Shown here: piece by piece, positions 3,630 to 10,244 of the stretch
Layout of the letters: each line of letters begins with the position of its first letter
Numbering within the stretch: position 1 is the stretch's first letter
DNA from: an uncultured Lachnospiraceae bacterium
GTDB taxonomy: Bacteria; Bacillota; Clostridia; Lachnospirales; Lachnospiraceae
Direction of reading: 5' to 3'
Assembly: GCA_945827765.1 (NCBI GenBank)
Contig: CALZPS010000036.1
Location: 1 to 10,244 of the forward strand
DNA: 10,244 nucleotides
Notes under the pieces: generated by a model
What the model was told of the DNA's origin: nothing
Databases searched by the model: none
What the model saw: only the letters and a program-made list of their open reading frames with translations
Program-made: the position numbers and the translations under genes

Positions 3630-3866
3630 TTATTTGATGATATATGGAGCCAATGCTGCCATGATATCATCAAGCTCGCCTTCCGCATGGATGTTCAAAT
3701 CAATCGGTTTGGATAAATCCAGACTGAAGATTCCCATGATAGATTTTGCATCTATGACATATCTTCCGGAAACTAAATCGAAATCATTGTCGTATTTTGT
3801 AATTTCATTTACAAATGCCTTTACTTTGTCGATTGAGTTTAAAGAAATCTGTACTGTTTTCATCAT
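3630..3866 (-). CDS. HPr-fold protein lacking the active-site histidine (Crh-like)
   Basis: A small cytoplasmic protein of 78 residues (77 if the second ATG at 3863 is used). The minus-strand site AGGAGG (complement of 3874-3879) lies 7 nt before the ATG at 3866. I recognise the HPr fold from TKYDNDFDL followed by AKSIMGIFSLDLSKPIDL, which lines up with the Bacillus HPr stretch SKYDADVNL...LKSIMGVMSLGIAKGAEI. The serine of KSIMG corresponds to regulatory Ser46 of HPr, the target of HPr kinase. The N-terminal GIHARPA loop with catalytic His15 is absent: the segment reads SLNSIDKVKAF. It therefore cannot act as a normal PTS phosphocarrier; it resembles Crh in keeping Ser46 and losing His15, though it need not be an orthologue. 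It is monocistronic, with its own promoter, and converges on thiI. Function unknown; a regulatory role in carbon metabolism is inference. Confidence 0.85.
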   Translation of the reverse strand: MMKTVQISLNSIDKVKAFVNEITKYDNDFDLVSGRYVIDAKSIMGIFSLDLSKPIDLNIHAEGELDDIMAALAPYIIK

Positions 3867-3895
3867 AATAATACCTCCTCGCTGCACAAAATGAT

Positions 3896-3914
3896 GTGAG
3901 AACTTATTTCTCAC
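3896..3914. repeat. Perfect 7-bp inverted repeat at the predicted start of transcription
   Basis: GTGAGAA (3896-3902) and TTCTCAC (3908-3914) form a perfect palindrome around a 5-nt loop. On the minus strand this falls at about +1 to +17 from the promoter at 3919-3947. It is therefore either an operator over the start site or a 5'-terminal hairpin in the mRNA of the HPr-like gene. It lies about 17 nt upstream of that gene's ribosome binding site, so it should not occlude it. Confidence 0.6.
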
Positions 3915-3918
3915 GTAC

Positions 3919-3947
3919 ATTCTAAGTGATAGTGGGGCAAAAGTCAA
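3919..3947 (-). promoter_or_regulatory. Sigma-A-type promoter of the HPr-like gene
   Basis: Read on the minus strand: -35 TTGACT (complement of 3942-3947), a 17-nt spacer, and -10 TAGAAT (complement of 3919-3924). Each box matches consensus at 5 of 6 positions and the spacing is ideal. The predicted start of transcription is near 3912, giving a leader of about 45 nt that begins in the inverted repeat at 3896-3914 and contains the AGGAGG site. Confidence 0.8.
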
Positions 3948-3974
3948 GAAACAGTAGGGAAAAAATGGAATAAA

Positions 3975-3994
3975 AAGTCTGAACAAGTCTGAAC
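3975..3994. repeat. Two exact tandem copies of a 10-bp unit upstream of mtaB
   Basis: AAGTCTGAAC occurs twice head to tail (3975-3984 and 3985-3994), 32 nt before the mtaB start, in the 160-nt gap between the divergent HPr-like and mtaB genes. A 10-bp period puts both copies on the same face of the helix, as for a regulator's direct-repeat site. I could not find a convincing -35/-10 pair for mtaB around it, so its role is open. Confidence 0.5.
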
Positions 3995-4026
3995 TGTTAC
4001 ACAAAAAGTACTAGGAGAAATATTCG

Positions 4027-8224: not shown

Positions 8225-8869
8225 ATGATAGTAGATGAACGGATTGTGACATTCATCAACTCCATGGAGACAGAAAACAGTGAAATATTGGAGACGATTG
8301 AGAGAGAGGCGCTTGCCGCAAAGGTGCCGATTATACGCAAGGAAATGCAGAGCTTTCTCAAGACACTCCTGATGATTTTGAAACCTATGCGCGTTCTGGA
8401 AGTTGGAACGGCCGTAGGTTTCTCAGCCATTTTGATGAGTGAATTGATACCGGCAGACGGCCGGATTACAACGATAGAAAATTATGAAAAGAGGATTCCT
8501 CTGGCAAAAGATAATTTCCGGCGGGCGGGGAAGGAAGAAGTTATCACCCTGCTGGAAGGAGATGCACTTGACATTCTGCCGACACTGACGGAAGAATATG
8601 ATTTCATTTTTATGGATGCGGCGAAGGGACAGTATATCCATTTTCTGCCGCAGGTACTGCGGCTTTTGAAACGCGGAGGGGTGCTATTGTCGGATAATGT
8701 GATGCAGGATGGAACAGTGATAGAATCCCGCTTTGCGGTAGAGCGCAGAGACCGCACGATTCATGCCCGAATGAGAGAATATCTCTATGAGTTGAAACAT
8801 CATGATCTTTTACAGACTTCGATTCTTCCTCTGGGGGACGGAGTGGCGTTGAGCGTGAAAAAAGGGTAA
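8225..8869 (+). CDS. trmR: O-methyltransferase, probable tRNA 5-hydroxyuridine methyltransferase TrmR
   Basis: A 214-residue class I SAM-dependent O-methyltransferase of the metal-dependent COMT-like group (Bacillus YrrM/TrmR). TrmR methylates 5-hydroxyuridine at tRNA wobble position 34 to 5-methoxyuridine. Motifs: SAM motif I VLEVGTAVGFSA (57-68), acidic ribose-binding E85 in TTIENYE, metal-ligand D131 in FMDAAKGQY (129-137), and D157-N158 in LLSDNVMQDG. The ATG at 8225 follows the RNase J stop by 10 nt with a GAGGG-like site overlapping that stop region. The U32 gene next door is the family that makes the 5-hydroxyuridine substrate, and the same two genes are adjacent in Bacillus (yrrM-yrrN-yrrO), which raises the TrmR call above a generic O-methyltransferase. 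Substrate is inferred from family and context. Confidence 0.88.
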   Translation: MIVDERIVTFINSMETENSEILETIEREALAAKVPIIRKEMQSFLKTLLMILKPMRVLEVGTAVGFSAILMSELIPADGRITTIENYEKRIPLAKDNFRRAGKEEVITLLEGDALDILPTLTEEYDFIFMDAAKGQYIHFLPQVLRLLKRGGVLLSDNVMQDGTVIESRFAVERRDRTIHARMREYLYELKHHDLLQTSILPLGDGVALSVKKG

Positions 8870-8897: not shown

Positions 8898-10130
8898 ATG
8901 AAAAGACATCCTGAACTGCTGGTTCCGGCGAGCAGCTTAGAAGTATTGAAGACTGCGGTCGTGTTTGGCGCAGATGCGGTGTATATCGGCGGAGAGGCAT
9001 TTGGGCTGCGGGCAAAAGCAAAAAATTTCTCCATGGAAGATATGCGCTCGGGCATCGCATTTGCCCATGAGCACGATGTGAAGGTTTATGTAACGGCAAA
9101 TATTCTGGCGCACAATGCAGATTTGGAAGGAATACGGACTTATTTTGAAGAGTTGAGAGAGATTAAACCGGATGCCCTGATTATTGCAGATCCGGGAGTG
9201 TTTGAGATTGCCAAAGAAGTCTGCCCGGAGATAGAGCGCCATGTAAGTACACAGGCAAATAATACTAATTACGCAACGTACAATTTCTGGTATAGACAGG
9301 GCGCAAAGCGAGTGGTGTCCGCGCGTGAACTATCGATGCAGGAAATCGGGGAACTGCGGGCACATATTCCCGCGGATTTAGAGATTGAGACTTTTATTCA
9401 TGGGGCAATGTGTATTTCCTACTCGGGGCGATGCCTTTTGAGTAATTATTTCACCGGCCGGGATGCCAATCAGGGAGCGTGTACGCATCCGTGTCGCTGG
9501 AAGTATGCGGTGGTAGAAGAGACGCGCCCGGGCGAGTACATGCCGGTCTATGAGAATGAGCGTGGAACTTATATATTCAATTCCAAAGATTTGTGTATGA
9601 TTGAACACATTCCGGAATTGATCGATGCCGGTATTGACAGCCTGAAGATCGAGGGCCGCATGAAAACGGCACTTTACGTGGCGACGGTAGCGAGGACCTA
9701 CCGCAGGGCATTGGATGATTACATGGAAAGCCCGCAGAAGTACCGGGCAAATATGCCGTGGTATCAGGAACAGATTTCCAACTGCACATACCGTCAGTTT
9801 ACAACCGGATTTTTCTTTGGAAAACCGGACGAACATACACAGATATATGACAGCAACACCTATGTAAAGGAATATATTTATCTGGGAATCGTCGGTGGGG
9901 AAAAGGACGGATTATATCGGATAGAACAGCGCAACAAATTCTCGGTCGGGGATGAGATTGAAATCATGAAACCGGACGGGCGGGATGTGCCTGTCAAAGT
10001 TGGTCGTATCATCAATGAAGATGGGGAAGAGCAGGACAGCGCTCCGCATCCCAAACAGGTATTGTATGTGGATTTGCAGGGGCAGGCAGAAATCTATGAT
10101 ATTTTGCGGGTTCGGGCACCCGTGCAATGA
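8898..10130 (+). CDS. U32 family protein, probable tRNA uridine-34 hydroxylase (TrhP/YrrO-like)
   Basis: A 410-residue member of family U32, long called a collagenase-like peptidase. Members TrhP (E. coli) and YrrN/YrrO (Bacillus) are needed for 5-hydroxyuridine at tRNA position 34. N-terminal TIM-barrel part: ELLVPASSLEVLKTAVVFGADAVYIGG; then the U32 signature ETFIHGAMCISYSGRC (164-179), NQGACTHPCRWKY (191-203) and SLKIEGRMKTALYVATV (248-264); a C-terminal beta domain follows (about 325-410). Cysteines C172, C179, C195 and C233 have nearly the spacing of the four cluster ligands in UbiU, suggesting a [4Fe-4S] cluster; C199 is a fifth candidate. The ATG at 8898 is 28 nt after the trmR stop behind a purine-rich stretch with a weak site. 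It ends at TGA 10128-10130, so it is complete despite the nearby contig end. Only one U32 gene is seen here, versus two in Bacillus. Confidence 0.92.
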   Translation: MKRHPELLVPASSLEVLKTAVVFGADAVYIGGEAFGLRAKAKNFSMEDMRSGIAFAHEHDVKVYVTANILAHNADLEGIRTYFEELREIKPDALIIADPGVFEIAKEVCPEIERHVSTQANNTNYATYNFWYRQGAKRVVSARELSMQEIGELRAHIPADLEIETFIHGAMCISYSGRCLLSNYFTGRDANQGACTHPCRWKYAVVEETRPGEYMPVYENERGTYIFNSKDLCMIEHIPELIDAGIDSLKIEGRMKTALYVATVARTYRRALDDYMESPQKYRANMPWYQEQISNCTYRQFTTGFFFGKPDEHTQIYDSNTYVKEYIYLGIVGGEKDGLYRIEQRNKFSVGDEIEIMKPDGRDVPVKVGRIINEDGEEQDSAPHPKQVLYVDLQGQAEIYDILRVRAPVQ

Positions 10131-10200
10131 GCGCGTTTGCCACGGTAGAATTGAGCGGCAAAATGGAATAAATTATTTTTTGAATGAGTGAACATAGAAA

Positions 10201-10244
10201 CTGTCTCTTATACACATCTGACGCTGCCGACGATACTCCTTGTG
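10201..10244 (+). other. Illumina Nextera adapter read-through (not genomic DNA)
   Basis: Bases 10201-10219 are exactly the Tn5 mosaic end in the outgoing orientation (CTGTCTCTTATACACATCT). Bases 10220-10233 continue as the Nextera read-1 transposase adapter (GACGCTGCCGACGA). Bases 10234-10241 read TACTCCTT, the reverse complement of i5 index S507/N507 (AAGGAGTA), and 10242-10244 (GTG) are the first bases of the P5-side sequence. The whole 44 nt is explained by untrimmed short-insert reads. The true genomic sequence ends at 10200; nothing here should be annotated as a gene. Confidence 0.98.

Follow-up and report, generated by a model that had tools for sequence, protein, structure and literature searches.

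Untrimmed Nextera adapter with kit indices at the contig ends of a draft bacterial genome

The last 44 letters of the window, by which we mean the whole 10,244-nt stretch of DNA analysed here, are leftover Nextera adapter with a barcode and are not bacterial. They almost certainly represent read-through of an untrimmed Nextera (Tn5 tagmentation) library that was assembled as genome. Adapter at contig ends is an already known kind of laboratory artefact and of low biological interest; the present analysis extends the initial annotation by showing that the artefact spans the whole genome and involves a second index, by finding 54-nt forks and false proteins in annotated records, and by showing how far the barcode can be used for identification.

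Adapter letters in the window and in its draft genome

Read directly, the end of the window at 10201-10244 consists of CTGTCTCTTATACACATCT GACGCTGCCGACGA TACTCCTT GTG. Letter comparison with the 33-nt Nextera read-1 adapter gave a match of its reverse complement to 33 of 33 bases at 10201-10233. This part comprises the Tn5 19-nt mosaic end (10201-10219, minus strand, present as reverse complement on the plus strand), which is an exact and the sole match in the window, and the remainder of the read-1 adapter (10220-10233, minus strand), an exact match to the reverse complement of TCGTCGGCAGCGTC. It is followed by the 8-nt i5 index at 10234-10241 (minus strand), where TACTCCTT is the reverse complement of kit index 507 (AAGGAGTA on the minus strand), and by GTG at 10242-10244 (minus strand), the three opening bases of the P5 side (GTGTAGATCT...). 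The left end of contig 81 extends further into the P5 side (...TACTCCTTGTGTAGATCT), and ends such as this one support an index length of 8 nt and not 10 nt. The window thus ends in an exact mosaic end with the read-1 tail, an 8-nt kit index and then P5 sequence, as had been claimed in the initial annotation, which described a match of the last 44 bases without mismatch. A search for the mosaic end that tolerated up to 3 mismatches gave one hit in the window compared to a mean of 0.01 over 200 shuffles, a single one of which gave a match.

The earlier naming of the index as S507 also holds, given 98 exact copies of the read-1 adapter with index 507 in the same genome and the names of i5 507 and i7 702 standing with matching letters in a table within the excerpt of PMC7589761 available to us, there within oligos bearing other tails. 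Oligos containing the read-1 adapter sequence are given in the excerpt of PMC8185305.

The window is contig 36 of a draft genome of 302 contigs and 1.81 Mb which is 69% complete. This draft genome contains 248 copies of the 19-nt mosaic end (119 forward, 129 reverse), compared to 0 copies of the reversed mosaic end used as a control on the same contigs. If every copy occupies one end, as at all examined copies, at least 248 of the 604 contig ends are capped. The read-2 adapter followed by an index was found in 121 copies; among the 100 of these that were listed, the i7 index is CGTACTAG (702) in 99 and one base off in the other.

We examined 109 end stretches (8 mosaic-end loci, 100 further stretches and the window), a sample that leans to larger contigs. 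The adapter was located at the contig end in 108 of them, the exception being the left end of contig 9, which lacks adapter and had been chosen as control. These 108 ends comprise 42 of the read-1 type, 65 of the read-2 type and one read-2 copy with a deleted base. All 41 whole i5 indices among the examined ends are 507, and 59 of the 60 whole i7 indices are 702, the remaining one being a base off; the adapter lies at the ends of many unrelated contigs, with a single index pair. The exact order of adapter, index and P5, the number of mosaic ends against none in the control and the presence of one i5 and one i7 index support the read-through. From the library chemistry, reads of short inserts would leave the bacterial DNA and continue through the mosaic end, the read-1 adapter and the i5 index to the P5 side.

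Tail lengths and contig breaks

The adapter tails of the examined ends cluster at 44-47 nt, where 88 of 108 lie, with extremes of 26 and 53 nt, and the 100 error-free tails of at least 41 nt have a mean of 45.4 nt (sd 1.45). If read length alone set the tails, a broad spread would be expected. Every tail of at least 50 nt contains an adapter error: this length is reached by four of five error-bearing ends vs 0 of 105 error-free ends (Fisher p about 9e-7), two of the five having been picked differently, from a later sample of 60 ends, than the error-free ones. The fifth error-bearing tail has two errors and 39 nt. Errors in long tails would be expected if exact adapter copies alone collapse in the graph. 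A de Bruijn assembler of an order of about 55 would extend contigs into the adapter until a shared adapter node is reached, and this node would set the usual 44-47-nt tail, a pattern that is observed and for which the mechanism is proposed. An equal-base model of this collapse predicts 5.3, 18.4, 43.7 and 29.8 tails of 44, 45, 46 and 47 nt, where 16, 25, 28 and 19 were seen; it thus finds the right place with too narrow a spread, so that the collapse step is approximate only. In 120 stretches from a viral collection the tails range from 33 nt, a floor set by the search pattern, to 120 nt, which is a loose comparison as these stretches stem from many assemblies. One viral contig (IMGVR_UViG_3300000510_000121, L222) of 4.7 kb carries the adapter internally at 2154-2186, which suggests a chimeric join.

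To this collection of ends we added 60 further ends absent from the matches listed, which together with the left ends of contig 9 and of the window amount to 62. A partial mosaic end at the terminus was found in 0 of these 62, and in two of them, on contigs 53 and 81, the adapter is present but its mosaic end differs at one base. When these 60 ends were compared with each other and with the 108 junctions, three pairs emerged in which exactly the last 54 nt of a clean contig recur in another contig, which passes into adapter at the start of the shared stretch (clean/adapter-bearing contigs 4/81, 64/13 and 88/49; in the pair 88/49 one of the 54 shared nucleotides agrees with the final base of the adapter by chance). 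The graph was thus forked by the adapter itself at these three sampled places. The exact 54-nt overlap suggests a graph order of about 55, although both the assembler and k are deduced from these overlaps, whose length would equal k with some assemblers and k-1 with others. A further pair, contigs 98 and 105 with short matches to contig 90, was rejected as a fork and is an inexact repeat. The right end of contig 98 (L423) and the left ends of contigs 105 (L412) and 90 (L112) have this repeat in common, with the palindromic core TGACATGCAAGCATGTCA; it is perhaps a small dispersed repeat.

Where genomic reads continue as well, adapter would make a false fork and a break, as observed at the three places, and where they stop, as apparently at the window, it would cap a gap. 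On balance it is probable that a measurable share of the contig breaks in this draft genome are false forks, consisting of an adapter-bearing and a clean contig which share exactly 54 nt, that adapters thus cause and do not merely mark fragmentation, and that the index-bearing ends form a built-in library tag for auditing the provenance of bins. Forks with exactly 54 shared nucleotides offer an easy way to recognise breaks that might disappear on reassembly after re-trimming.

Between 426 and 10130 the window is an ordinary housekeeping cluster, in which all ten scanned proteins except one HPr-like frame are encoded on the plus strand. These proteins are an RNA methyltransferase (PF04452), a class-V aminotransferase, ThiI, a UPF0004/radical SAM protein, IreB, RuvX, a DUF1292 protein, ribonuclease J, a peptidase U32 and the HPr-like frame; the latter (3630-4004, minus strand) shows a weak match to the PTS-HPr domain (27.0 bits vs a cut-off of 23) and has its neighbours on the opposite strand. 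The last real gene of the contig is the intact peptidase U32 family gene (8898-10130, plus strand; Pfam PF01136 and PF16325), whose DNA is 74-78% identical in 11 of 11 same-genus genomes searched. It is followed by the last genomic bases ahead of the adapter (10131-10200), which are intergenic. Same-genus DNA matches stop at or before about 10109, so that 10131-10200 stand without a check from relatives; the position of the junction is fixed by the start of the adapter.

The initial annotation explained the end of the contig by an assembly break, which is incomplete in view of the three forks at which the adapter itself made the break. At the window the contig more likely ends at a coverage gap or because its neighbour was left unbinned, since no other contig of the bin matched its end: a search of its own genome with 8898-10200 returned the window alone. 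No other contig of the genome matched its left end either. The end of the window may also be adapter-made, with its continuation in a separate unbinned contig that overlaps it by the 54 nt preceding 10201. The three sampled forks in the same draft genome have such an anatomy; however, the own-genome search gave only the window, and the gene that follows the U32 gene after 201 bp in a relative (L010), presumably an OPT-type transporter, was undetected in the draft genome, where an empty answer shows little at 69% completeness. We regard this continuation as possible but rather unlikely.

A different origin of the breaks would be single Tn5 insertions in a library of very low input, in which case adjoining contigs should share the 9-nt target duplication. 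This would fit the many adapter-bearing ends of one genome, but among 5,778 pairs of the 108 examined junctions (of at least 248 mosaic ends) none shares 9 nt in the required orientation, where 0.02 were expected by chance, and this origin was rejected as very improbable; at the window's own junction one flank is known. A real Tn5/IS50-type transposon end in the chromosome is practically inconceivable and was rejected: the 19-nt mosaic end is indeed the Tn5 recognition element (excerpt of PMC11075570), but it is followed by 25 bases of read-1 tail, kit index (8 nt) and initial P5 sequence, the read-1 and read-2 forms both occur many times in one genome, and no transposase was detected in the 10 proteins of the window that were scanned, a set to which neither the truncated first gene nor the gene at 8225-8869 belongs.

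False reading frames and false proteins

Read-through adapter also provides false starts for reading frames. On the minus strand, a 67-aa frame (10012-10215) begins within the adapter with GTG at 10215-10213 and reads (V/M)YKRQ..., in agreement with the earlier claim of a frame beginning MYKRQ from 10215. It is partly antisense to the conserved U32 gene. Among six relatives the matching frame (from 10130 downward) has an early stop in one (L013), and in the other five it is open to about the stop of the window's frame with low similarity; a real gene at 10012-10215 is doubtful. A second minus-strand frame of 14 aa (MCIRDS..., 10173-10217) starts within the adapter with ATG at 10217. Among the 108 examined ends, 48 have a frame whose start codon lies inside the adapter and which stays open across the whole 200-nt flank used; over all 108, there are also 72 frames with at least 50 open codons that lead outward into the adapter.

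Public records show that gene callers may begin or finish proteins inside adapter. A search of 50,697 phage records with the 44 nt gave 27 matches, among which one phage is represented by duplicates; in 72,556 plasmid records it gave 9. Most of these matches cover the adapter part alone. An annotated gene lies under the adapter match in 12 of the 27 phage matches, and in all four phage records inspected of those 12 the annotated protein contains adapter-derived residues: VUF54202.1 starts with MCIRD, VUF54226.1 and VUF53887.1 contain RQMCIRDS and AASDVYKRQ, respectively, inside, and VUF52988.1 has the C-terminal end VSYTHLTLPTICSV. In the phage records H11, H17, H20 and H21 the Nextera adapter is located far from the ends, and in all of these except H11 it coincides with an annotated gene for a terminase or recombinase. 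The four VUF proteins support the creation of false protein ends by translated adapter, which the initial annotation had stated for N-termini, and adapter-capped contigs can accordingly give predicted proteins false ends.

The description of MYKRQ as a known artefact peptide in databases stands in part. In published work on intentional insertions, DVYKRQ is what the Tn5 end encodes (excerpts of PMC11075570, PMC4106830 and PMC3066235); the peptide also occurs in PMC9917459. However, none of the papers met in the literature search describes DVYKRQ, MYKRQ or MCIRDS as an artefact of databases, and the single MYKRQ paper found concerns a fish oestrogen receptor.

The index pair and adapter in other assemblies

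The earlier term "readable sample index" was correct in that the index can be read (507), but it is not specific to the sample, as the 702/507 pair is present in three other public genomes. These were found by searching for i7 702 in 18 genomes taken from the matches to the read-1 adapter followed by 507 and GTGTA, of which there are at least 100 in named genomes, 80 of them listed; they hold 70 (SRR5240745_bin.31, read-2 adapter with 702), 19 (ERR1855548_bin.5) and 5 (Kitasatospora phosalacinea) copies. Among the matches listed, stretches of ERR1855547 carry i7 701 (5 copies) and ERR1855549 i7 703 (1 copy). The pair 702/507 thus recurs in projects that look unrelated by name. The barcode denotes a kit index pair and not a sample, and an index pair is a hint of provenance and not a sample identity.

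Using a pattern that misses the read-1 form, we detected the read-2 form in 4 of 295 relatives, with 135 copies in the window's genome, 121 in G163, 33 in G177 and 2 in G278. In 20 stretches the relatives G163, G177 and G278 carry other i7 indices (TACGCTGC, GCTACGCT and TGGTTCAG); the left end of contig 17 of G278 (L359) has TGGTTCAG. TGGTTCAG is not known as an index of the Nextera kits. In a draw of 398 genomes from the phylum, either adapter form was found in seven, including the window's genome (240 copies) and six others with 1, 1, 1, 2, 3 and 8 copies, and in none of the remaining 391. Dense capping by adapter is therefore rare but not unique.

Adapter copies are present in phage, plasmid, viral-contig and genome collections. 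The adapter left in public assemblies resembles that of the window in the same read-1 adapter, the kit index and the position at the contig end, whereas the window's genome differs in its density of 248 mosaic ends per 604 contig ends. Two uncultured metagenome-assembled genomes, Blautia sp. ERR1855548_bin.5 and Lachnospiraceae SRR5240745_bin.31, share the i5-507/i7-702 pair and have similar tails, mostly of 42-48 nt in the places seen, but are genomes distinct from the window's. Engineered Tn5 insertions, which introduce DVYKRQ or CLLYTS linkers into proteins, translate the same 19-nt end (excerpts of PMC11075570, PMC4106830 and PMC3066235); in contrast to the adapter of the window, which was never in the organism, these insertions are deliberate and really present in the DNA.
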